From positions 3,038,001 to 3,102,000 of the forward strand of contig NZ_CP031467.1 of the NCBI RefSeq assembly GCF_003368325.1: a DNA stretch of 64,000 bases, given 5' to 3'. Under the pieces are notes generated by a model. That model was not told where the DNA came from and did not search any database. It saw only the letters and a list, made by a program, of their open reading frames with translations. The position numbers were made by a program, and so were the translations under genes. Below, in pieces: positions 49,305 through 60,953 of this stretch. This stretch comes from Paraburkholderia caffeinilytica. Lineage in GTDB: Bacteria; Pseudomonadota; Gammaproteobacteria; Burkholderiales; Burkholderiaceae. Within the stretch, counting starts at the first letter, position 1; every line of letters starts with the position of its first letter.

Positions 49305-49378
49305 CTCACGCTCACGCTCACGCTCACGCTCACGCTCACGCTCAACCAACCAAACAAACAAACAAACAAACAAACAAA
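49305..49378. repeat. Two adjacent simple-sequence repeats: (CTCACG)6 and (CAAA)7
   Basis: Six perfect CTCACG units (about 49305-49340) are followed after a short spacer by seven CAAA units (about 49351-49378). They lie 22 nt beyond the stop of the sigma-54 activator gene. Such tracts change length by slippage, but here they lie outside any recognised coding frame. Confidence 0.85.
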
Positions 49379-49400
49379 CCGCGTGAGCCCCCGGTACGCC

Positions 49401-50462
49401 TTATTGCTCGTTTTCTTCGTCCGGGCCTTCTTCGCCGCCGTATGCGCTCAAACGGTTGTAAAGCGTTTTCAGACTCACGCCGAGCGCTTTGGCCGCACGC
49501 CGTTTGTCGCCGCCGCAATACTTGAGCGTGCCGAGAATGATCTGCCTTTGCGCATCGGCGAGCGGCGTGCCGATCCACACGCTCATCGCATCGCCCTGCG
49601 TGACGGGCTTTTTCACACGCGATGCGAGGTGCGGATGCGGCAACTCGACCGTCTTCTCCGCGAGAATGAACGCGCGATATACCGCGTTCTTCAACTCGCG
49701 CACGTTGCCCGGCCACGACCAGGTCCGCAGGGTTTCGATCGACCGTTTGCTGAAGCTCTTGCTCGCGTTTTCCTGCTGATTCAGCAAGGCGAGGAAGTGT
49801 TGAGCGAGCAGTTCGCGATCGTTCTCGCGTTCGCGCAACGGCGGCGCGCGCAACGGGAAAACCGCGAGCCGGTACATCAGGTCTTCACGCAGGCCGTTTT
49901 CCTTTACCGCCACCGCGGGGTCGCGATTCGTCGCCGCGATCACGCGTACGTTACCGCTAATCAGTTCGTTGCCGCCGACCCGAAAAAACGTGCCGGTTTC
50001 GAGCGCGCGCAAGAGCTTGACCTGGCGCACCGGCGCCATTTCCGTGATTTCGTCGAGAAACAGCGTGCCGCCGTTCGCATGCTCGAAGTAGCCGATGCGG
50101 CCCTGGACCGCGCCGGTGAAGCTGCCCTTTTCGTGGCCGAACAATTCGGCTTCGATGAGTTCGTCCGGAATCGCGCCGCAGTTCACGGCGACGAACGGTG
50201 CGTCCTTGCGGCTGCTTTGATCGTGAATCGTGCGGGCGATCAGCTCCTTGCCCGTGCCGGATTCGCCGATGATCAGCGCGGTCGCGTCCGTGCTGGCGAC
50301 GCGTTCGATCTGTTCGTAAAGATCGAGCATCACCGGCGACGAGCCATACAGCAGCCCGTACGATTTCAGTCCCGCGACGCCGTCCGCGACGCGCTGCTTC
50401 GTCTGTGCCGACGCATTGCCGCCGGCGGAGACGGTGGGCGAGTCCAGATCGATTGACGCCAT
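49401..50462 (-). CDS. Sigma-54-dependent activator without receiver domain
   Basis: A 353-residue AAA+ enhancer-binding protein. Walker A GESGTGKE, the sigma-54-contacting loop as GSFTGA (usually GAFTGA), Walker B GTLFLDEITEM, the arginine region VIAATNRD, and a C-terminal Fis-type helix-turn-helix (CGGDKRRAAKALGVSLKTLYNRL). There is no N-terminal sensory domain beyond about 35 residues, so control is probably by expression or by a partner, as in HrpR/S or PspF. The ATG at 50462 has AGGA upstream. It is divergent from a DUF883 gene with a sigma-54 promoter. Confidence 0.93.
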   Translation of the reverse strand: MASIDLDSPTVSAGGNASAQTKQRVADGVAGLKSYGLLYGSSPVMLDLYEQIERVASTDATALIIGESGTGKELIARTIHDQSSRKDAPFVAVNCGAIPDELIEAELFGHEKGSFTGAVQGRIGYFEHANGGTLFLDEITEMAPVRQVKLLRALETGTFFRVGGNELISGNVRVIAATNRDPAVAVKENGLREDLMYRLAVFPLRAPPLRERENDRELLAQHFLALLNQQENASKSFSKRSIETLRTWSWPGNVRELKNAVYRAFILAEKTVELPHPHLASRVKKPVTQGDAMSVWIGTPLADAQRQIILGTLKYCGGDKRRAAKALGVSLKTLYNRLSAYGGEEGPDEENEQ

Positions 50463-50673: not shown

Positions 50674-50689
50674 GGGCACGGCGGTTGCG
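50674..50689 (+). promoter_or_regulatory. Sigma-54 (-24/-12) promoter before DUF883 gene
   Basis: GGGCACG-GCGG-TTGCG matches TGGCAYR-N4-TTGCW at all core positions. Transcription would start near 50700, leaving a leader of about 118 nt before the DUF883 gene. A gene for a sigma-54 activator lies directly upstream in the opposite direction. Confidence 0.7.
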
Positions 50690-50817
50690 CCGGGCATCCG
50701 ATATGCGTGCGTTTTGAGCGTCTCTGTTCGAAGCGCGCCGGCGGCGGATGCGGCTCTCCGATTGTCCGCGACATGCCGGAAACAGGATGCGAACACCGAA
50801 TTCGGAAGGAGTGAATG

Positions 50818-51135
50818 ATGACTGACACGACGCAACAGTTAGCACTCGGTAGGCGGAAAATTGTCGAAGATCTTAGGGTGCTGCTGACAGACTCGGAAGA
50901 GATGCTTCGGCTTGCCGCCAACGTGCCGGGCGAAGGCGTCGATGCGTTACGCGAGCGGCTGGGGGCGCATGTCGAAACCCTGCAATCGGCGCTCGGCGAT
51001 GCGCAGCAGAACGCACAGCGGCGTTACCGGGCTGCGGCCGTCAATACTGAACGCTATGTGCGGCGCAACCCGTGGCGCTCGATCGGTATTGCCGCGGGTA
51101 CCGGCTTCCTGCTTGGCGTCCTCAGCAGGCGCTAA
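50818..51135 (+). CDS. DUF883 (YqjD/ElaB-like) membrane-anchored protein
   Basis: A 105-residue protein: helical, coiled-coil-prone N-terminus (IVEDLRVLLTDSEEMLRLAAN, LRERLGAHVETLQSALGDAQ) and a C-terminal membrane segment RRNPWRSIGIAAGTGFLLGVLSRR, the hallmark of the YqjD/ElaB family. E. coli YqjD is inner-membrane, binds ribosomes and is induced in stationary phase under RpoS. Here a sigma-54 promoter precedes it. AAGGAG at 50806-50811 fits the second of two tandem ATGs best. Confidence 0.9.
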   Translation: MTDTTQQLALGRRKIVEDLRVLLTDSEEMLRLAANVPGEGVDALRERLGAHVETLQSALGDAQQNAQRRYRAAAVNTERYVRRNPWRSIGIAAGTGFLLGVLSRR

Positions 51136-51183
51136 CGCGCAGTGCCCGACGCTGATCCGTTTGACGATGACAAGGAGTCCACG

Positions 51184-51456
51184 ATGGCACGACCCAAAAT
51201 TGGCTTCTTCGGCGCGCTGGTGGCCCTCGGCGGGTTTCTGGCCGTGCGCCACCTGCAGCGAAACCGTGCCGCGCAGGTTTCTGCCGCGCGTGACCTGAGC
51301 CGCTGGGAAGGCGAGGGTGGAGCGGAGGCGCCGGCTGCGTCGTCCGGCAGCGTGACGGCGGGCGCCGGCCTGTCCACGCCACATACCGCGCATGGCGCAA
51401 ATGGCCCGGTGCGTTCGAATGGCAAAGACGGCGCCTGGCCGTTCCCGCGCGGTTGA
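51184..51456 (+). CDS. Small membrane protein downstream of DUF883
   Basis: A 90-residue protein: MARPKIGFFGALVALGGFLAVRHLQRNRAA forms one N-terminal membrane helix, followed by a low-complexity Ser/Gly/Ala-rich tail. AAGGAG eight bases before the ATG at 51184 supports this start. It lies 48 nt after the DUF883 gene, in the same presumed sigma-54 transcript. No family recognised. Confidence 0.7.
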   Translation: MARPKIGFFGALVALGGFLAVRHLQRNRAAQVSAARDLSRWEGEGGAEAPAASSGSVTAGAGLSTPHTAHGANGPVRSNGKDGAWPFPRG

Positions 51457-51528
51457 GGATCGGAACCAGCGCCTTGCGTGCGCGGCCGCGCCGGTGTGCC
51501 GTTTCTGCGAACGGCACCTGGCGCACAT

Positions 51529-51558
51529 GACAAATTTGTCTCGATAAAGCCGTATAAT
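51529..51558 (+). promoter_or_regulatory. Palindrome and -10 box upstream of response regulator
   Basis: GACAAATTTGTC (51529-51540) is a perfect 12-bp palindrome; a consensus TATAAT follows at about 51553. The palindrome covers where a -35 box would be. This may be a regulated sigma-70 promoter for the gene at 51770, giving a leader of some 200 nt. Confidence 0.4.
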
Positions 51559-51769
51559 GGGTAAATAGGCAACAATATCGTGCTTTTTTGGGGTTTTGCC
51601 CAATCGATTGTTGCGGCATTGAGTCAAGTCGGAGTCATGGCGCGGCTACGGAACGTTAGCGTGTGCTCACATCCGAGTGCGCATACGGCGCGATGGCATG
51701 CTGCCGGCCGGCTTCCCGTCATGCGGTTTTGCATGTCCCCTATTCACGCTTTCTGGCTTTCGAGACGCG

Positions 51770-53170
51770 ATGCCACACGTACTGATTGTCGATGACGATG
51801 CCGGTACCCGCGAGGCGCTTTCCGCCATCATCGGGGAAGACGGTCTGACTACCGCCACTGCGGGCGATCTGCGCGAAGCGCGCATTCAACTGGTCCGGCA
51901 GATACCGGACGTCGTGTTTACCGACCTGAAGCTGCCCGACGGCAGCGGAGTCGATCTGTTTGAAGATCTCGATCCGCGCTCCGGCGTGGAGGTGATCGTG
52001 ATTACCGGCCACGCCACGGTGGAGTCGGCGGTCAACGCGTTGAAGATGGGCGCCACCGACTATCTGGTGAAGCCGATCAACATGCAGCGCGTGAAGGCGA
52101 TCCTCTCACGCTTGCCGCGCGCCGGCGACCTGAAGGCGGAAATCGGCACTTTGCGCGGCGAGTTGCGCCGCATGGGCCGCTTTGGGTTGATGCTCGGCAA
52201 TTCGCCGGCTATGCAGGAGGTTTACGACCAGGTCGGCCGCGTTGCGCCGACAGCGGCCTCGGTCATGCTGGTGGGCGAGTCGGGCACCGGCAAGGAAGTC
52301 GCCGCCCAGACGCTGCACCAACTCAGCTTGCGCCGCAAGCACGCGTTCCTCGCGGTGAACTGCGGTGCGATTTCGCCGAACCTGATCGAATCGGAAATGT
52401 TCGGCCACGAGCGCGGCTCGTTCACCGGTGCCGACCGTCAGCACAAAGGTTATTTCGAACGCGCGAATGGCGGCACGCTGTTCCTCGACGAAATCACCGA
52501 AATGCCGACCGAGTTGCAGGTGAAGTTGCTGCGCGTGCTGGAAACGGGCATGTTCATGCGGGTCGGGACGACCAAGGAAATCGAAACGGACGTGCGCCTG
52601 ATTGCGGCCACTAACCGCGATCCTGAGCAGGCGGTGCTGGAGGGCAAGTTGCGGCTCGATTTGTACCACCGGCTGAACGTGTTTCCGATCAGCTTGCCGC
52701 CGCTGCGCGACCGGGGTAAGGACGTCGAGTTGCTGGCGCAGGCGTTTCTCGACGAACTCAACGAGCGTCACAACACGAAGAAGCATTTCCCGGCCGCCGT
52801 GAAGGACATGCTGATGTCGTATCCGTGGCCGGGCAACGTGCGCGAGTTGAAGAACTATGTGCAGCGCGCGCACATCATGTCGGGTTCGGATTCGGACAGT
52901 ACGGCGACGGTGCCGTTGCAGATCACGTTGTCGAAGCCTGCCGCCGGTACGGCAATTACGATTCCGTTTGGCACTTCGCTTGCCGAGGCGGATCGGCAGT
53001 TGATTCTGGCTACGCTCGAGCAATGTGGGGGCGTGAAGACGCGGGCTGCTGAGATTCTTGGGATTAGTTTGAAGACGCTTTATAACCGTCTCGTTGAGTA
53101 TGGGAATGATGCGCGGGATGAGGGTGATGTTGCTGATGAGTCGCCCGCTTTGGGGGGGGCTGGGGGGTGA
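51770..53170 (+). CDS. NtrC-family sigma-54 response regulator (orphan)
   Basis: A 466-residue regulator. The receiver domain has DDD at 8-10 and phospho-acceptor Asp52 (VVFTDLKLPDGSG) with Lys in YLVKPINMQ. The AAA+ domain has Walker A GESGTGKE, the GSFTGA loop and GGTLFLDEITEM; a Fis helix-turn-helix ends the protein (CGGVKTRAAEILGISLKTLYNRL). No kinase gene is adjacent. The last codons run through G8 and G6 tracts (53152-53167). The ATG at 51770 begins the receiver domain; the frame is open further upstream. It lies near four sigma-54 promoters and is a candidate activator of them. Confidence 0.94.
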   Translation: MPHVLIVDDDAGTREALSAIIGEDGLTTATAGDLREARIQLVRQIPDVVFTDLKLPDGSGVDLFEDLDPRSGVEVIVITGHATVESAVNALKMGATDYLVKPINMQRVKAILSRLPRAGDLKAEIGTLRGELRRMGRFGLMLGNSPAMQEVYDQVGRVAPTAASVMLVGESGTGKEVAAQTLHQLSLRRKHAFLAVNCGAISPNLIESEMFGHERGSFTGADRQHKGYFERANGGTLFLDEITEMPTELQVKLLRVLETGMFMRVGTTKEIETDVRLIAATNRDPEQAVLEGKLRLDLYHRLNVFPISLPPLRDRGKDVELLAQAFLDELNERHNTKKHFPAAVKDMLMSYPWPGNVRELKNYVQRAHIMSGSDSDSTATVPLQITLSKPAAGTAITIPFGTSLAEADRQLILATLEQCGGVKTRAAEILGISLKTLYNRLVEYGNDARDEGDVADESPALGGAGG

Positions 53171-53252
53171 GGTTGTTTTTTTGCCTTTGGCGGTGAGTGT
53201 TTGTTTGTGTTTCTGCGTTTTGTGCTTTTCCTTGAATTGTTAGTGGTCTATT

Positions 53253-53530
53253 AGTGTTCGCCCCTGTGCGGGGCAGGCACCTACTTTTCTTTGCCGGCTG
53301 CAAAGAAAAAGTAGGCAAAAGAAAGCAGCTCAAACCACTGATGCTAAGTGGGCACCGTAGTTTGCAACGGGTAGTGGTGCATCTGGAATCCGTGTTCGCG
53401 CACCTCCATTCGCGTGTGACATGGGGCTCATCAGTTCCCACTCCGCACTACGTGCGTCGCGGACGGGTCTGCATGGGAAACCAGTGGCTTCGGTTGGGTG
53501 TGGTGGAGCCATCGGCTTCGCCTCGGTGAG
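53253..53530. repeat. Probable dispersed Burkholderiales intergenic repeat
   Basis: Begins with CCTACTTTTCTTTGC-CGGCT-GCAAAGAAAAAGTAGG (53280-53315), a large near-perfect hairpin, then GCAAAAGAAAGCAGCTCAAACC. I recall this sequence as recurring between genes in Paraburkholderia and Burkholderia genomes; within this window it occurs once. No protein-coding frame is credible across it. Confidence 0.5.
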
Positions 53531-53609
53531 GCGCTGAAGCGACAGTCGCGGCGCTGCGCGCGCCGAAGCGTACTTCATCAATCAGCTGGCGGTTCTTCTG
53601 CGTTCGATT

Positions 53610-53625
53610 CGGCATGGGCTTTGCT
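53610..53625 (+). promoter_or_regulatory. Sigma-54 (-24/-12) promoter before proline-rich gene
   Basis: CGGCATG-GGCT-TTGCT fits TGGCAYR-N4-TTGCW. Transcription would begin near 53636, about 20 nt before the ATG at 53657, leaving just room for the ribosome site GAGG at about 53646. Confidence 0.6.
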
Positions 53626-53656
53626 CGATTCGATGGAACCCGAACGAGGTGCCGAC

Positions 53657-53887
53657 ATGCTGGAATACGCCACCGTTTCTTCGCTTCCTCTTCCGATGCA
53701 CGCTCATCGCCCTGAACCGATCGAGCCGCCGTCGCCGGATCCGGGCGAGCCCGATACGATTCCAAGTCCGACTCCGGATCCCGTCGAACCGGTTGCGCCG
53801 CCGATCGGCGATCCACCGCCGCAGCCCACGCAAACGCCACAAGCCTGTCGGCGTCAGCCGTCGCGTGCCGCCAGCATGCAACTCTGA
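53657..53887 (+). CDS. Proline-rich microprotein
   Basis: A 76-residue protein, MLEYATVSSLPLPMHAHRPEP..., whose middle is built from Pro-Glu-Pro, Pro-Asp-Pro and Pro-Pro units and must be disordered. No signal peptide or membrane segment. Support for its being real: GAGG seven bases before the ATG, and a sigma-54 promoter whose start point falls about 20 nt upstream, excluding earlier ATGs. Function unknown. It could also be non-coding. Confidence 0.5.
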   Translation: MLEYATVSSLPLPMHAHRPEPIEPPSPDPGEPDTIPSPTPDPVEPVAPPIGDPPPQPTQTPQACRRQPSRAASMQL

Positions 53888-54040
53888 CCCGTTCCGTACG
53901 CTGCACCACAGTTCGGCGCAGCGAATTTATGTACTTGTTACAAAGACGGCGCATCTTTTACCGGCAAATTACCGTCGTGACCCCTACACTGAATTGACGC
54001 CGCTCCCGATCGCGGCGGGCTTCCCCTGGAGGCATCGATC

Positions 54041-54250
54041 ATGAGACACCCAGCACTGCGACGTTCCGCGCGCCACTCGAAGCGCGATTCCCGGCCAGGC
54101 AGCAAGAGCGGCCCGCCGGAGTCGCCGGACCCGGCCGCGCAGAACCGCATCGCGCCCAACGCCCCGCCAGACGGCGAGCACAACCAAGGGGGCGTGCGAC
54201 GGGAAGGACTGGAGTACCAGCGCGATCTCGGCTCGGAACAGGACGCCTGA
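54041..54250 (+). CDS. Small hydrophilic protein of unknown function
   Basis: A 69-residue, highly charged protein (MRHPALRRSARHSKRDSRPG..., ...REGLEYQRDLGSEQDA), probably disordered. GGAGG stands nine bases before the ATG. It lies between the proline-rich gene and otsA. No domain recognised; coding status is moderate because evidence is only the ribosome site and frame. Confidence 0.42.
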   Translation: MRHPALRRSARHSKRDSRPGSKSGPPESPDPAAQNRIAPNAPPDGEHNQGGVRREGLEYQRDLGSEQDA

Positions 54251-54388
54251 GTCCGTCTGACCATCGTTAAGAAGGGTTCCGGTTTCGTCATACAAAGCAG
54301 AAAAAATTTCTTCGCGTTGCTTCAGCGTCGCGCGTTTCTGCTCGTTTGTCACATTTACATACATTTTTATTTCCAGCATCTCGTAAAA

Positions 54389-54404
54389 CGGCACGCGACT
54401 TGCG
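54389..54404 (+). promoter_or_regulatory. Sigma-54 (-24/-12) promoter before otsA
   Basis: CGGCACG-CGAC-TTGCG has every core base of the consensus. The predicted start is near 54415, about 47 nt before the otsA ATG. No competing sigma-70 promoter is obvious in this AT-richer stretch. Confidence 0.7.
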
Positions 54405-54461
54405 TGCACCTTTTTGGCACATATCCGCATGCAACGAAACTACTGACTAGGTGGAGCACCA

Positions 54462-55889
54462 ATGAGCAGACTGATCGTGGTATCGAATCGTGTGGCGCCG
54501 ACCCAGGAAGGCCGCCCCGCAGCAGGCGGCCTCGCGATCGGCGTGCTGGACGCTTTGAAGGAAACCGGCGGAGTCTGGTTCGGCTGGAGCGGTGAAACGG
54601 TGAGCGAGCCGTCCGCTCCGTTGATCGAAAAGCAGGGCAACGTGACGTATGCGACGGTGGGCCTCACCAAGCGCGACTACGACCAGTACTATCGCGGCTT
54701 CTCCAACGCGACGCTCTGGCCGACGTTCCACTATCGCAACGATTTGTCACGCTACGACCGGCAGGAGTACGCGGGCTACCAGCGCGTCAACGCGGCGCTT
54801 GCCAGGCAGCTCAATGAACTGCTCAAACCCGACGACATCATCTGGGTGCACGACTACCACCTGCTGCCGTTCGCGCGCTGCCTGCGCGAGCTCGGCGTGA
54901 AGAATCCCATCGGCTTCTTCCTGCATATTCCGTTTCCGGTTCCGGAAGTACTCCGTACGATTCCGCCGCACGAGGAACTGGTCAAGGCAATGTGCAGCTA
55001 CGACGTGATCGGTTTCCAGACCGAAGCGGACCGCCAGTCGTTCGTCGACTTCATCGAGCGCGGCCAGCACGGCACCTCGAGCGAAGACGGCATGGTGCAC
55101 GCCTACAATCGTTTCCTGAAAGTGGCCGCGTACCCGATCGGCATCTATCCGGACGCGATCGCCAGGGCCGCCGAGCAGTTCACCGACCGCAAGCCGGTGC
55201 GCAGCCTGCGTGACGGCATGCGCGGGCGCAAGCTGATCATGAGCGTAGACCGGCTCGATTACTCGAAGGGTCTGGTGGAGCGCTTCCAGGCTTTCGAACG
55301 GTTGCTGCTGAATGCACCGGGTTGGCACGGACGCGTGTCGCTGGTGCAGATCGCGCCGCCGACGCGCGCGGATGTGCAGACGTATCAGCGCATTCGTCAG
55401 ACGCTGGAGGGCGAGGCCGGCCGCATCAACGGCCGCTTCGCGCAACTCGACTGGACGCCGATCCAGTACCTGAACCGCAAATACGAGCGCAATCTGCTGA
55501 TGGCGCTGTTCCGTCAATCGCAGGTCGGTTATGTGACGCCGCTGCGCGACGGGATGAACCTGGTCGCGAAAGAGTACGTCGCGTCGCAGGATCCGGCCGA
55601 TCCGGGCGTGCTCGTGTTGTCGCAATTTGCCGGTGCGGCCGAGCAACTGCCGGGGGCGCTGGTCGTCAATCCATTCGATCTGTCACAGATGGCCGAGGCG
55701 CTGGAGCGTGCGCTGTCGATGCCGCTTGCCGAGCGTCAAGCGCGCCACGCGGACATGATGGCGCCGATGCGCGAGAACAATCTGTCGGTCTGGCGCGATA
55801 CGTTCCTGGGCGATCTGCGCAACATCGCGACCGCCTCTTCGGTGACGGCCAAAGCGGTAAAGCTCGCTGACGTGACGGCCTCGTCGTAG
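54462..55889 (+). CDS. otsA: Trehalose-6-phosphate synthase
   Basis: Joins UDP-glucose and glucose-6-phosphate to trehalose-6-phosphate, for osmotic and desiccation protection. The 475-residue GT20 enzyme shows SRLIVVSNRVAPTQEGRPAAGGLAIG, the sugar-binding GWSGE, WVHDYHLLPFA, RLDYSKGLVERFQAFERLL, and DGMNLVAKEYVASQ near the C-terminus. No otsB phosphatase gene is adjacent. A sigma-54 promoter lies just upstream, unusual because otsBA in E. coli depends on RpoS. GGTGGAG before the ATG is a good ribosome site. Confidence 0.97.
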   Translation: MSRLIVVSNRVAPTQEGRPAAGGLAIGVLDALKETGGVWFGWSGETVSEPSAPLIEKQGNVTYATVGLTKRDYDQYYRGFSNATLWPTFHYRNDLSRYDRQEYAGYQRVNAALARQLNELLKPDDIIWVHDYHLLPFARCLRELGVKNPIGFFLHIPFPVPEVLRTIPPHEELVKAMCSYDVIGFQTEADRQSFVDFIERGQHGTSSEDGMVHAYNRFLKVAAYPIGIYPDAIARAAEQFTDRKPVRSLRDGMRGRKLIMSVDRLDYSKGLVERFQAFERLLLNAPGWHGRVSLVQIAPPTRADVQTYQRIRQTLEGEAGRINGRFAQLDWTPIQYLNRKYERNLLMALFRQSQVGYVTPLRDGMNLVAKEYVASQDPADPGVLVLSQFAGAAEQLPGALVVNPFDLSQMAEALERALSMPLAERQARHADMMAPMRENNLSVWRDTFLGDLRNIATASSVTAKAVKLADVTASS

Positions 55890-55935
55890 CCGCATCAACG
55901 GCGGCGCGCGGGTCTTCAGGATCCGCGCGTGCTGG

Positions 55936-57378
55936 TCACGTCGAACTTTTTACCACACGCAACATGCTGACCACGGCGGCGACCGCCGAGAAGCAGGCTG
56001 CCACATACAGCACGACAGTCGGCCCATTCTGCGGCGCGATGCCGAAGATCAGCGCGACCAGCGCCGCGCCGAGCGTCTGACCGGTCAGGCGCGCGGTGCC
56101 GAGCATCCCGCTCGCACCGCCGCCGCGCTCACGCGGCGCCGCGGACAACATGGTCCGGTTGTTCGGCGACTGGAAGATCCCGAAGCCCGCGCCGCACAGC
56201 GCCATGCGCCACGCGATCTGCATGGGCTCGGGATGCGCGCCGAGGGTGGCGAGCAGCAGCAGGCCCACCGTCATCGCAACGAGGCCGACGCCGCCCAGCC
56301 AACCGGACGACACCTTGTCCGACAGCACGCCGGCAATCGGTGCGGCGATGATGATCACCGCCGGCCACGGCGTCATCAGCAAACCGGTTTCCACCTGCGA
56401 CAAACCCAGCGTGTCCTGCAATAAAAACGGCAATGACACGAAGGCCAGCATCTGCGCGCAGAAGGAACAGACCGAGGTGCCGATCGACAGGGCGAACACC
56501 GGAATCCTCAGCAAATCGATCGGCAGCAGGGGCGCCGGCTGAGTCAACTGACGGCGCACGAAGAAGTAGCCGATCGCAATCGCGACGAGTGCCTCCGCGA
56601 TGACCCAGCCGACGTGCTCGCCGTGACCGAGACCGTCGATTGCAAAGATCAGCAGGCCGAACACGAACGCGTTCATCACCGCGCTCAGATAGTCGTACGG
56701 CGACTCGTGGCCGGGATTCAGCGGCAGCGCCTTGAAGCCGCCGACAATCGCCGCGATCCCGATCGGCACATTGATCGCGAACAGCCACGGCCAGGAGGCG
56801 ACGGCGAGCACGCCGGAGGCGACCGTCGGCCCGACCGCGGACGACACCGCGACGACCATCGCGTTGATCGCGACGCCGCGTCCAAGCTGCGAGGGCGGAT
56901 AGATCATGCGCACGAGCGCCGTGTTCACGCTCATGATGCCTGCCGCTCCGAAGCCCTGGACCACGCGGGCGAGCGCGAGCGTCGGCAGCGAAGTGGACAG
57001 CGCGCACCCGAACGACGCCACCGTGAACAGGATCAGCCCGGCCAGATAGATGCGCCGGTAGCCGATGCGATCGCCGAGCGAAGCCAGCGGCAGCAATGAA
57101 ATGGTGATGGCGAGCTGGTAAGCGTTGACGATCCAGATCGAGCCGGCTGCGCTCGCATGCAGATTGCGCGCGATGGTCGGCAGCGCCACGTTGGCAATCG
57201 CACTATCGAGCACCGCCAGCGTAAGGGCGAGGGCGATGACCAGCATCGCCCAGTAGCGTTGCGGAATCGGCAAGCCTAGTTCGGTGCTGTCCGGGAGCGG
57301 TGCGCCGGCGGCGAGTGGAGCAGCTGAGGCGGCATCGGCCGGCATCGAACCGTCCTTGCGCGATGGTTGTGCGTGCAT
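55936..57378 (-). CDS. MFS drug exporter, DHA2 (14-helix) family
   Basis: A 480-residue proton-driven efflux protein: motif D1-like LDSAIANVALPTIARNLHASAAGSIWIVNAYQL, motif A LGDRIGYRRIYLAG and motif C-like segment in helix 5 (VVAVSSAVGPTVASGVLA). About 14 helices. The ATG at 57378 is one choice; the second Met (residue 12) is possible. No fusion-protein or TetR/MarR gene is next to it. Substrate unknown. Confidence 0.9.
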   Translation of the reverse strand: MHAQPSRKDGSMPADAASAAPLAAGAPLPDSTELGLPIPQRYWAMLVIALALTLAVLDSAIANVALPTIARNLHASAAGSIWIVNAYQLAITISLLPLASLGDRIGYRRIYLAGLILFTVASFGCALSTSLPTLALARVVQGFGAAGIMSVNTALVRMIYPPSQLGRGVAINAMVVAVSSAVGPTVASGVLAVASWPWLFAINVPIGIAAIVGGFKALPLNPGHESPYDYLSAVMNAFVFGLLIFAIDGLGHGEHVGWVIAEALVAIAIGYFFVRRQLTQPAPLLPIDLLRIPVFALSIGTSVCSFCAQMLAFVSLPFLLQDTLGLSQVETGLLMTPWPAVIIIAAPIAGVLSDKVSSGWLGGVGLVAMTVGLLLLATLGAHPEPMQIAWRMALCGAGFGIFQSPNNRTMLSAAPRERGGGASGMLGTARLTGQTLGAALVALIFGIAPQNGPTVVLYVAACFSAVAAVVSMLRVVKSST

Positions 57379-57526
57379 CGTTCTTTTGATTTGGCGTGGA
57401 GCGGCGCATCGGTCCTGCGAACTTGCGATGAGCCACGCGCGCTACGCGCCGCCCCGGAAAGCCAGGATGGCGCGCAGCGACGATGCCGGGGCGCTGCGAC
57501 CGCGCCCCGGCATCGCGTCTCACGCG

Positions 57527-58030
57527 TTATTTGAGTTCGTACAGACCGGTGTGGGTGGTCGAGTCGAGTTCGTTCAGATGCGTCATGAAGCGCGCGACCG
57601 CGTTGGTCGTTTCCGCATCGATCGGCAGATGCGGCACCTTCAGCGCATGCAGACGGAAGATGTAGCGATGCGTCCTGTCGCCGCGCGGCGGCGCCGCGCC
57701 GCCGAAGCCGACCGTGCCGTAGTCGTTGCGCACCTGCAGTGCGCCTTGCGGCAGCAGCGAACAGTCGGCCTTGCCGGCGTTGCGCGGCAGCGATCGGGCA
57801 TCAGCCGGAATGTTGACGACGACCCAGTGCCAGAAACCGCTGCCGGTGGGCGCGTCGGGATCGTGAACGGTGAGCGCGAAGCTTTGGGTGTCGGCCGGCG
57901 GCGCATCCCAATGCAACGCGGGCGAGATGTTCTCGCCGTCTACGCCGAAGGCCTTGTCGTCATATTCGTGGGCTTTCGGCATAAAGCCGTTGGTGGGGAA
58001 ATCGTCGGACCAGAGACGGAAATCAGCCAT
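57527..58030 (-). CDS. YbhB/YbcL-type (PEBP, Raf kinase inhibitor-like) protein
   Basis: A 167-residue cytoplasmic protein of the phosphatidylethanolamine-binding family. The ligand-pocket motif is LTVHDPDAPTGSGFWHWVVVNIP, followed by GTVGFGGAAPPRGDRTHRYIFRLHAL. The ATG at 58030 has GGGAGG upstream, preferred over longer frames. The bacterial function is uncertain. Confidence 0.93.
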   Translation of the reverse strand: MADFRLWSDDFPTNGFMPKAHEYDDKAFGVDGENISPALHWDAPPADTQSFALTVHDPDAPTGSGFWHWVVVNIPADARSLPRNAGKADCSLLPQGALQVRNDYGTVGFGGAAPPRGDRTHRYIFRLHALKVPHLPIDAETTNAVARFMTHLNELDSTTHTGLYELK

Positions 58031-58225
58031 CGTGTGCCTCCCTTCTTGAGTGGTTCTGGGATGGTCGGAGCGTGCTCTTTTTGCTGCCGCCTGGCCGTTG
58101 AGCCCGCGGCCGGTTGCTGCCCGATTTCTGCAGCATCGGCACGCAAAAAATGCCCCGTGCAGCCAATCGAGTGTATCACCAGCGGCTGGGGAGTTAGCTC
58201 GAACTGGGCAGACTACAGGCAACTT

Positions 58226-58672
58226 TCAGCCGCGTTCCTCGAAGCTCGGCGCGTCGCTCTTCAACCACTCGGCGAGCCGTTGCAACACGCCTTCGATATC
58301 GCGATTCGCACCGCGCAAAGCGCATTCCCAGACCACCCCGACGCGCCAGCCGCTCGCGAGCAGCGCCGCCCGAACCTTGTCGTCGTTGCTGCGATTGCGG
58401 CCGATCTTGTCGCGCCAGAACTCGGGCCGCGTTTGCGGCCATTTGAACAGATGACAGTCGTGACCGTGCCAGAAACAGCCGTGCACCAGCACGACGGCGC
58501 GATAGCGCGGCAGCACGATATCCGGCCGGCCCGGCAGATCGCGCGCGTCCAGACGGAAGCGAAAGCCCCGGCCGTGCAGCAGGCTGCGGATCAGGATTTC
58601 CGGCTTCGTGTTGCGGCCGCGAATACCGGACATCATCCGGCTGCGCGTTGCGCTGTCGACGATATCGACCAT
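58226..58672 (-). CDS. vsr: Very short patch repair endonuclease Vsr
   Basis: A 148-residue nuclease that nicks next to the T of T:G mismatches left by deamination of 5-methylcytosine. MVDIVDSATRSRMMSGIRGRNTKPEI at the start, catalytic Asp in LPGRPDIVLPRY, and the zinc and active-site segment VLVHGCFWHGHDCHLF are typical. It follows the cytosine methyltransferase gene by 30 nt on the same strand, as dcm-vsr in E. coli, where it repairs damage at methylated sites. Confidence 0.96.
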   Translation of the reverse strand: MVDIVDSATRSRMMSGIRGRNTKPEILIRSLLHGRGFRFRLDARDLPGRPDIVLPRYRAVVLVHGCFWHGHDCHLFKWPQTRPEFWRDKIGRNRSNDDKVRAALLASGWRVGVVWECALRGANRDIEGVLQRLAEWLKSDAPSFEERG

Positions 58673-58702
58673 CGTTAGCGTCCGGGCAAAGGATCGTGCC
58701 GC

Positions 58703-59986
58703 TCAGGAATAGAGCGAAAGGGCCTGCTTCGAACCATTGTGCGTCTCCTCGGCGAGCAGGGTTTGCACATGCGGCAGCATGATGCGCGCCACTTCCCGCA
58801 TCACCGGCATCACGACGCTGTTGCCGAATTGCCGGTAAGCCTGCGTGTCGCTGACCGGAATCCTGAAGGTATCGGGAAAACCCATCAGCCGTGCGCATTC
58901 GCGCGGCGTGAGGCGGCGCGGCCGCAATCGCTCGCCTTGATAGACCAGAATCTCCGAGCCGTCCTTGTGATAACGCGCGGAGAGCGTGCGCGTGACGCTG
59001 TCAGGATAAGCCATGCCGAAGCCGAAGCCATTGCCCGCCGCGCGATGCTTGGCCGCGTAATTTTGCAGATAGGCCCAGAGATTCGGCGTAAGCGTGTACT
59101 TTGGCTGCACCCGTTTGATGGCGTGGTCGAAGAAGCGATCGTGGTCCCACGGCAGCACCGGTTCGCTGCCGTCCGTGCGATGCAGGATCGAGCCGAGGCG
59201 CGGGCCGCTTTCCGGCAGACGCAGATCGTCCCAGGAGAACGACGTCTTGCCGCGAAAGCCGACGATGATGATGCGCTCCCGGTGCTGCGGCGTGAAATGC
59301 TGGCCGTCGACCACGCGGTAGTGCACTTCGTAGCCGAGTTCGTCGCGCAGGGTTTGCAGGATCACGTCGAAGGTGCGGCCTTTGTCGTGCGAGAGCAGAT
59401 TCTTCACGTTCTCCAGCAGGAACGCCGCGGGCCGCTTTGCCGCGATGATCCGCGCGACGTCGAAAAACAGCGTGCCCTGTGTCGTGCACTCGAAACCGTG
59501 CGGGCGACCCAGCGCGTTTTTCTTGCTGACGCCGGCAATCGAGAACGGCTGGCACGGAAAGCCGCCGAGCAGCACGTCGTGGCTCGGCACCTCTTCGGCG
59601 GGAAAGGAGACGATGTCGCCGATCAGCGTGTGGTCGCCGCCGGCAGGATAGTTCTCGCGATAGGTCCTGGTGGAGAAATCGTTCCACTCGCTCGTGAAGA
59701 CGCAGTCGCCGCCGTGCGCCTCGAAACCCATCCGAATGCCGCCGATGCCGGCAAACAGATCGATGAAGCGGAATTGGGCGTCGCCGGTGGCAGCGCCCGC
59801 CTTCGTCCGGCCGCTGCTGTGCAGCAGATCCCGCAAGGCCGGCTCGAGCATCGATGGGCACGGTGTTTCGCCTTTTTCCCAGCGACGCACCGTCTTGATG
59901 TCCTTGCCGACGTGCGCGGCGATTTCGCGTTGAGTGAAGCGGGCGCGCGCCTGTCTGAGCAGGTCGAGCGGTGCGGCGAGGGTCAC
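58703..59986 (-). CDS. dcm: DNA (cytosine-5) methyltransferase, Dcm-like, with N-terminal HTH
   Basis: A 427-residue C5-methyltransferase. Motif [21 protein letters not shown] (about 73-92), the catalytic Cys in [15 protein letters not shown] in [19 protein letters not shown] (motif VIII) and [11 protein letters not shown] at the end. Residues 1-60 form a helix-turn-helix ([24 protein letters not shown]) like that of E. coli Dcm, which may autoregulate. With Vsr beside it and no restriction enzyme, it looks like a solitary housekeeping methylase. CCWGG specificity is a guess from the pairing. Confidence 0.95.
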
Positions 59987-60027
59987 GGATGTCCTTGCTG
60001 GGAATTTTTGCGGACATTATGACCTAA

Positions 60028-60199
60028 GGTCGTCCCTTTTTCCTATTTCCACTGAGTGCGAGCAGAAAATATCCGGAAGCGCAAAGACCGCTTCTGTCTA
60101 AACGCGAATGTCACAGTTGGACGTGTAGGCTTGCAGCGTGACGCGAAATCCCTGCGTTGCGACGTGTTCAGGCCGCGACAGGGTTCGCGGCCTTTTTTT
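60028..60199 (+). ncRNA. Candidate small RNA ending at an orphan terminator
   Basis: A weak promoter (TTGCTG, 17 nt, TATGAC; about 59994-60022) points right in the region divergent from dcm, and a strong terminator closes at 60171-60199. The roughly 170 nt between has no credible coding frame, and no plus-strand gene upstream could use the terminator. A stable RNA is the simplest reading, unproven. Confidence 0.35.
60171..60199 (+). terminator. Strong intrinsic terminator with no upstream gene
   Basis: GGCCGCGA-CAGGGT-TCGCGGCC followed by seven T. Its orientation is plus; the nearest genes on both sides are on the minus strand. Confidence 0.88.
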
Positions 60200-60261
60200 A
60201 GCGGGGAAGAGTGGCGCAGGCGACGTGGAGCGCCTGCCATCAAGGCTTGCCGCGCGTCAGA

Positions 60262-60585
60262 TCAGCGGTGACGACCGGTGGCGAGCCGTGGCCGCGGGGC
60301 TGGAGCGGCGGCTGCCGGGGCGGGCGCATTCCATACTGGCAGGGGTTCGGCTTCGAACCGGTCCAACTGCAGCAGGAGGCTGTCGACCGTGCACAGTTGC
60401 GCGTGGGACAGATTGCCGGTGTCGAGCAACTGGTGCAGACGCTTGCGCCAGTAGGTGACCGGCAGGATCGGTCCGCCCAGGTCGCCTTGTAGAGACGGCC
60501 GCATCACGCGCGCAATATGTGCGATATCCCGATCGATCAGTGCGGCGTGGGATGATCCCGTCAGCGTAATGAGTGTGCGTTCCAT
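60262..60585 (-). CDS. Conserved small protein of unknown function
   Basis: A 107-residue soluble protein: MERTLITLTGSSHAALIDRDIAHIARVMRP, GDLGGPILPVTYWRKRLHQLLDTGNLSHAQLCTVDSLLLQLDRFE, then a low-complexity Ala/Pro tail. The folded part (about 1-80) seems helical. AGGGG precedes the ATG. I do not recognise a domain. It is divergent from the CsbD gene. Confidence 0.68.
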   Translation of the reverse strand: MERTLITLTGSSHAALIDRDIAHIARVMRPSLQGDLGGPILPVTYWRKRLHQLLDTGNLSHAQLCTVDSLLLQLDRFEAEPLPVWNAPAPAAAAPAPRPRLATGRHR

Positions 60586-60691
60586 AGCCCCTCCATGGCA
60601 CCTTTACGGCAGGCTGCGGCGGGACTTTAGGGTTTTTTGAAATATTCTTCGCGGCCGGCGTTACCCGGCAAGACGGGCTGGCGGCGGGCGT

Positions 60692-60707
60692 GGGCACACC
60701 CGTTGCT
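60692..60707 (+). promoter_or_regulatory. Sigma-54 (-24/-12) promoter before csbD-like gene
   Basis: GGGCACA-CCCG-TTGCT fits TGGCAYR-N4-TTGCW. The distance to the ATG (55 nt from TTGC) is almost the same as at otsA (58 nt). Confidence 0.62.
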
Positions 60708-60761
60708 GAATCGGGATACTGGCGTAGTGTCGCGCCGGCATTCCAGATATCGGAGCCGAAC

Positions 60762-60953
60762 ATGAATAAGGACCAGGTAAAAGGTGTAGGCGAGCAGATC
60801 AAGGGCAAGGTCAATGAAGCGCTCGGTAAGGCCACCCACAACCCGGGTAAAGAGCTTAAAGGCGACCTCCAGCAAGCCGCAGGCAAAGTGCAAAAGGCCT
60901 ATGGCGATGCTAAGGAAAACGCCAAAGACAATGTAAAGCGCAACGCGCGATAG
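60762..60953 (+). CDS. CsbD-family stress protein
   Basis: A 63-residue hydrophilic protein, MNKDQVKGVGEQIKGKVNEALGKATHNPGKELKGDLQQAAGKVQK..., with the repeated KG-x(2)-x-QIKGK / LKGDLQQAAGKVQ units of CsbD. CsbD in Bacillus is a sigma-B general stress protein; E. coli YjbJ is abundant in stationary phase. Molecular role unknown. Here it has a sigma-54 promoter and its own terminator. Confidence 0.92.
   Translation: MNKDQVKGVGEQIKGKVNEALGKATHNPGKELKGDLQQAAGKVQKAYGDAKENAKDNVKRNAR

Follow-up and report, generated by a model that had tools for sequence, protein, structure and literature searches.

The window analysed here is a stretch of 64,000 nucleotides from Paraburkholderia caffeinilytica (contig NZ_CP031467.1, positions 3,038,001 to 3,102,000), and our subject is a set of four putative sigma-54 promoters of the -24/-12 type that lie before stress-type genes and close to two activators of sigma-54-dependent transcription. 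The pattern GGCAYR-N4-TTGC occurs four times, always on the plus strand, at 50675, 53611, 54390 and 60693, and nowhere else in the window when both strands are scanned. The sites are GGCACGGCGGTTGC (50675..50688) before a DUF883 gene, GGCATGGGCTTTGC (53611..53624) before a gene for a small proline-rich protein, GGCACGCGACTTGC (54390..54403) before otsA and GGCACACCCGTTGC (60693..60706) before csbD. At each of them GG and GC stand ten bases apart near a start codon, as in a sigma-54 promoter. The original prediction had named the same four sites, with positions that were each one base too low, and had placed them shortly before starts, which agrees with distances of about 46 to 140 bases: the first G lies 140 bases from the start codon of the DUF883 gene, 72 from that of otsA, 69 from that of csbD and about 46 (judged by eye) from the ATG at 53657 of the proline-rich open reading frame.

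The DUF883 gene (50815..51135, plus strand; PF05957 and PF19029) encodes an ElaB/YqjD-like membrane protein and is followed, behind the same promoter, by hyp104 (51184..51456, plus strand), a small conserved protein that is present in related loci and for which no Pfam family was found. The proline-rich protein (53657..53887, plus strand) carries an IGDPPP motif and belongs to no NCBIfam family that we could find; its start is uncertain, being either 53657 or 53696. OtsA, the trehalose-6-phosphate synthase (54462..55889, plus strand), matches PF00982 and, above its cut-off, TIGR02400, and the CsbD-like protein (60762..60953, plus strand) matches PF05532. OtsA, BON/OsmY, CsbD and ElaB/YqjD proteins are classic members of the general stress response governed by RpoS or sigma-B.

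Both activators that had been predicted at 49401-50462 and 51770-53170 are there, as judged by their domains. The first enhancer-binding protein, EBP1 (49401..50462, minus strand; PF00158, AAA_lid_14 and HTH_8), has no sensory domain, a GSFTGA loop and a helix-turn-helix that reads SLKTLYNRL. The second, EBP2 (51770..53170, plus strand; PF00072, PF00158 and PF02954), is a response regulator. All 58 genomes sampled from the genus have EBP1, and with 20 kb taken around it in 57 relatives there are 58 loci including the window, in all of which EBP2 adjoins EBP1. The Walker A, Walker B, sensor I/II and helix-turn-helix motifs are intact in nearly all 58 rows of both proteins, a receiver is found in EBP2 only, and the GSFTGA loop is present in 56 of 58 EBP1 and 50 of 58 EBP2 rows, so that both have the features of an enhancer-binding protein (AAA+ domain, Walker A/B, GAFTGA loop, sensors and helix-turn-helix). 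Since both recognition helices read SLKTLYNRL (G[VI]S[LR]KTLYNRL in 58/58 rows of each), EBP1 and EBP2 probably bind similar DNA. Among the matches listed, both remain below the NCBIfam cut-off for all 25 activator models, and therefore no existing name fits them. Short tandem repeats with CTCACG and AAAC units lie directly downstream of EBP1, at 49310-49380.

The number of sites is suggestive at best. With equal bases, a pattern with eight fixed and two two-fold positions should occur about once in 262,144 positions of each strand, not once per half-million as had been estimated, and shuffled windows contain 1.14 matches on average. Four matches are reached in 5 of 100 shuffles, and over the whole genome (8.32 Mb, both strands) the pattern has 131 matches where its reversed form has 97, a modest surplus. 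The count is therefore weak evidence, and counting alone was dropped as proof of promoters. T at -26, which is usual but not essential in -24/-12 promoters and belongs to the full consensus, is absent from all four window sites. The fuller pattern TGGCAYRN4TTGCW has 12 matches in the genome, none of which is a window site, and its reversed control has 9. Several of 18 sites hand-picked among 100 of the 131 genome matches, a selected sample too small to judge enrichment, lie inside open reading frames; one region of the sample, L232, was off target and holds no site.

Conservation of the sites in related loci

Among the 58 genus loci, otsA falls within 57 and csbD within 22. The strict site precedes otsA, on the coding strand and within 300 bp, in 57 of 57 loci, at -63 to -77, and it precedes csbD in 21 of 22, the lone exception reading GGGAACAGCCGTTGCT; the reversed pattern, used as a control, occurs in 0/57 and 0/22. 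The site was also present before otsA in 46 of 46 named loci (Paraburkholderia, Caballeronia, Trinickia, Mycetohabitans and one Burkholderiales bin), a set that overlaps with the genus set, many assemblies being the same. Thirteen other query genes of the genus loci served for comparison: the site is absent from ten of them and present in 3/55, 2/58 and 5/58 loci of the remaining three, the last of these being hyp104 behind the DUF883 promoter. At otsA the eight core bases are invariant and the flanking columns agree on average at 0.54 and 0.61, the rows being anchored on the pattern.

In 52 of 57 genus loci the interval from EBP2 to otsA contains the slightly wider pattern GG[CT]AYRN4TTGC, and a proline-rich open reading frame follows it in 47/57 genus loci and 19/26 named loci. 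At DUF883 the strict site is present in 21 of 58 loci and GGG[CT]AYRN4TTGC in 31 of 58, with further GGGAAC variants in the alignment. The expected conservation in relatives is thus borne out for otsA, csbD and the proline-rich gene and is weaker for DUF883. It is this conservation, not the match count, that leads us to accept the sites as real: the comparison strongly supports genuine sigma-54 promoters at otsA, csbD and the proline-rich gene, and a genuine promoter at DUF883 is less supported than these.

Several other features of the locus were noted. Beyond the promoter, the csbD leader (60718-60745) has a conserved stretch, ACTGGCGNAAN3TCGCGCCGGCA, that may be a hairpin or a site for a protein. 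Divergent from csbD is a small gene at 60262-60585 (minus strand), whose upstream region, extending to about 60650, contains on the strand of that gene a CTAAAGT ... GCCGT block that resembles a FliA (sigma-28) promoter and is kept in most of the 22 aligned csbD loci. Between EBP2 and the proline-rich gene, at 53260-53330, lies a block with the look of an inverted repeat, CCTACTTTTCTTTGCC ... AAAGAAAAAGTAGG, which we take to resemble repeats of Burkholderia genomes. A C5 cytosine methyltransferase (PF00145) is encoded at 58226-59986 (minus strand), beside an open reading frame that resembles a very-short-patch repair endonuclease.

Linkage to the activators and choice of members

A wider sample comprised 120 genomes of the family from 25 genera, in which an EBP1-like match was defined by E <= 1e-90 and OtsA was mapped as well; 77 of the 120 genomes, in 14 of the 25 genera, have an EBP1-like match. 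When 20 loci with otsA beside the activators were compared with 26 in which otsA lies elsewhere, either in other genera or as a paralogue within the genus, the strict site preceded otsA in 19/20 linked loci against 2/26 unlinked ones. The two exceptions are genome G136 and one paralogue, and the unlinked loci without the site include the orthologous otsA of one genus, g12 (probably Cupriavidus). This linkage supports the connection that had been drawn between the sites and the adjacent activators, and on these comparisons it is quite probable that EBP1 and EBP2 act at these promoters.

The sites are also selective among paralogues. In the window genome the otsA copy of the window has a site and neither of its two paralogues in the same genome does, and the strict site occurs in only 1 of 12 BON loci (10 genes) and 1 of 3 DUF883 loci fetched, one locus of this survey (L335) having the looser site TGGCACCGAAGTTGCG. 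The whole BON and DUF883 families were therefore dropped as members. Activator pairs without otsA in other genera have sites before DUF1328 and DUF883 proteins (Ralstonia) and before a proline-rich protein (Pigmentiphaga). Near the activator pair of four loci from Ralstonia, Pigmentiphaga and bins (L217, L199, L229, L226), sigma-54-like sites were seen before DUF1328, DUF883, proline-rich and PrkA-like genes.

The original prediction spoke of a sigma-54 general-stress regulon. What stands of this are the conserved sites and their linkage to the activators, but the wording was broader than the evidence, since single paralogues are chosen and the motif is moderately in excess across the genome. 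A general stress regulon spanning the whole genome would go beyond the evidence, and the predicted regulon is stress-type in content but selective. A literature search on RpoN with trehalose, CsbD or DUF883, with most subscription papers and supplementary tables outside it, did not find such a regulon, nor did it find, in the portions of the literature available, a paper joining otsA, sigma-54 and Burkholderia or a link between otsA and rpoN.

The second sigma-54 gene and the base at -26

The window genome has two rpoN genes, the second of which, rpoN2, lies outside the window and had not been seen in the original prediction. The family sample contains 60 genomes with two rpoN genes and 28 with one, and an EBP1-like match is present in 60/60 of the former (59 with at least two matches) against 17/28 of the latter (Fisher p 6.7e-7, kinship ignored). 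The distance from rpoN2 to the activators in the 60 genomes is up to 10 kb in 39, 10-30 kb in 5 and greater on the same contig in 3; in the other 13, among them the window genome, rpoN2 is on a different contig. In a tree the RpoN1 rows are split from the RpoN2 rows with support of 100/100, a few long branches being unsure.

The rpoN2 gene of the window genome has a sigma-54 promoter of its own, TGGTATGACAGTTGCT, at -81, and 55 of 64 distinct rpoN2 upstream regions have a sigma-54 site no more than 130 bp from the start, with T at -26 in 55/55. A divergent site is present in 43 of the 64 regions and has T at -26 in 2/43; in both the window genome and Verticiella the gene divergent from rpoN2 encodes a BON-domain protein, and the rpoN2 and BON locus of the window genome is on another replicon. 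No such site was found before RpoN1 genes (0/21), a limited test since the upstream stretches were short (about 100-300 bases) for 20 relatives.

The window-type promoters differ from the rpoN2 promoters at -26. At otsA this base is C in 42, A in 10, G in 3 and T in 2 of 57 promoters, and at csbD it is G in 22/22 and T in 0/22, so that T is rare where the rpoN2 promoters always have it. The residue after ARRTVxKYR is E in 21/21 RpoN1 proteins and some other residue in all 57 matched RpoN2 rows (16 rows were unmatched), and the RpoN box contacts the -24 region, according to the available text of PMC7057263. The contrast at -26 together with this residue suggests that RpoN2 reads a promoter class other than that of RpoN1. 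That RpoN2, and not RpoN1, serves the window-type promoters has in our view about an even chance, if anything slightly better.

A predicted promoter of the other class was found at a GlgE-type alpha-glucan gene elsewhere in the window genome (L291; contig C1, near 3084097), where a TGGCACA-N3-TTTGCT-like site, canonical and of the T-26 class, lies about 230 bases upstream; it is present in 30/30 loci fetched, of 55 genomes with a match. This gene may answer to another activator. Farther upstream of its site in the window genome is an inverted repeat, GTGTAAAACG ... CGTTTTACAC.

A candidate stress-type sigma-54 regulon

We propose, with a probability of about 70%, that the activator pair, probably together with RpoN2, runs a small stress-type sigma-54 regulon from four working -24/-12 promoters. 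EBP1, which has no sensor domain, and EBP2, a response regulator, would open the four promoters, and the output would be trehalose (otsA) together with small envelope or stress-type proteins, namely CsbD, DUF883, the proline-rich protein and, at the rpoN2 locus, BON. RpoN2 is the candidate sigma factor, since in the family sample it is found only with an EBP1-like match, is often a neighbour of the pair and is itself preceded by a sigma-54 promoter. RpoN1 would drive rpoN2 here by analogy with what is reported in Ralstonia, and the signal would presumably be stress. Related activators encoded side by side are also known in HrpR/HrpS; both are adjacent pairs, whereas here one member has a receiver domain.

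Ralstonia has a similar arrangement, a second rpoN with its own sigma-54 promoter near two GSFTGA activators. In R. solanacearum, as far as the available text goes, rpoN2 has a sigma-54 promoter and its expression is abolished in the rpoN1 mutant (PMC4371752), and the enhancer-binding proteins RSp1667 and RSp1668 (GSFTGA) are listed without function, rpoN2 (RSp1671) being a few genes off and among the possible targets; the rpoN2 mutant grew normally with all compounds tested (PMC4676750). In the Ralstonia loci examined here EBP1, EBP2 and rpoN2 stand together, and the equation of RSp1667/RSp1668 with EBP1/EBP2 is drawn from place and motif, not from alignment. The difference is that a stress regulon is not proposed in the available parts of these two papers. 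In Burkholderia pseudomallei an rpoN2 mutant is described as having no katE expression, and katE is said to have an RpoN box (PMC4745423, available text). This is likewise positive control of a stress gene by RpoN2, but the target is a catalase and not trehalose or small stress proteins, and the activator is not named in that text. BerB of B. cenocepacia, which acts with RpoN on exopolysaccharide, is alike in being an RpoN activator in a Burkholderia, and it was rejected as the same system: it is Bcam1342, encoded beside the bep cluster, and binds cyclic di-GMP (PMC5552954, available text).

Could the sites be chance matches in a GC-rich genome? The shuffles that reach four matches and the small genome-wide excess over the reversed pattern would allow it, but a site kept in all otsA loci and all but one csbD locus, where the reversed pattern never occurs, makes this extremely improbable, and for otsA, csbD and the proline-rich gene the chance reading is ruled out by conservation. 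It is also improbable, if somewhat less so, that the conserved block resembles a -24/-12 element by coincidence and is in fact something else, for instance a hairpin in the transcript or an operator bound by a different regulator. The window otsA site does overlap a terminator-like hairpin (54391-54407), but the hairpin needs the N4 bases, and these vary between loci (37 different 16-mers among 57) whereas GGCA and TTGC ten bases apart are constant; a terminator hairpin was for this reason rejected as the explanation of the otsA site. This spacing is found again in the sites before csbD, DUF883, the proline-rich gene, rpoN2 and BON, and a sigma-70-like promoter was not found in 54250-54480.

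A more serious alternative, though still an unlikely one, accepts the sites as genuine sigma-54 promoters but assigns them to RpoN1 acting with NtrC or some other activator of the genome, EBP1, EBP2 and RpoN2 having different targets. PF00158 has 26 matches in the window genome, genome G138 keeps the otsA site with a single rpoN, rpoN2 of R. solanacearum is listed as a possible NtrC target (PMC4676750, available text), the GlgE-type gene has its canonical T-26 site in every locus fetched, and the promoters have no binding site in common that would connect them with EBP1/EBP2. What argues for the dedicated activator pair instead is that the otsA site follows the activators (19/20 loci beside them against 2/26 elsewhere) and is missing even from the orthologous otsA of g12, and that T at -26 is rare in the window-type promoters (otsA 2/57, csbD 0/22) when it is invariable in those of rpoN2.

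Other observations weigh against our proposal of a regulon run by the pair with RpoN2. One linked locus, G063, lacks the otsA site, and the relatives are not independent since linked otsA is confined to one group of related genera and the named and unnamed sets overlap. A gapped-word search of six promoter sets returned only GC-rich words, none kept across sets, and so found no shared activator-binding site. Across 31 loci from more distant genera, motif density near the activators (28 in 168 kb) does not exceed that farther away (73 in 435 kb), the near stretch omitting most rpoN2 promoters. Upstream of the sole PF00199 catalase gene in the window genome there is no such site, and the published katE link is therefore not reproduced here. 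As to RpoN2, 17 genomes, G138 among them, have an EBP1-like match and one rpoN, the window genome has rpoN2 on another contig and not beside the activators, and in g12 rpoN2 lacks such a promoter in 5/5 loci.

As a tentative extension, which we hold to be possible but doubtful, the Burkholderiales would have a stress sigma factor of the sigma-54 family: a diverged RpoN2 that reads promoters of a separate class (-26 being C, G or A), switched on by RpoN1 through a canonical T-26 promoter and running, with the dedicated EBP1 and EBP2, a stress programme parallel to RpoS, in other words a two-step sigma-54 cascade. If the difference at -26 reflects sigma specificity, two sigma-54 paralogues of one cell would here tell their promoters apart, something of which there are few examples. 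The sigma-54 factor is best known for nitrogen use, and our findings point to a stress programme under sigma-54 in Burkholderia-like bacteria. Trehalose synthesis and small stress proteins are textbook targets of RpoS or sigma-B; here, in contrast, the same families carry predicted sigma-54 promoters, which need ATP-driven activators. Our proposal would give a concrete role to RpoN2 and to the two Ralstonia activators listed without function and, if true, would mean that many soil, plant and clinical bacteria run part of their stress defence through an ATP-driven, enhancer-dependent sigma factor.

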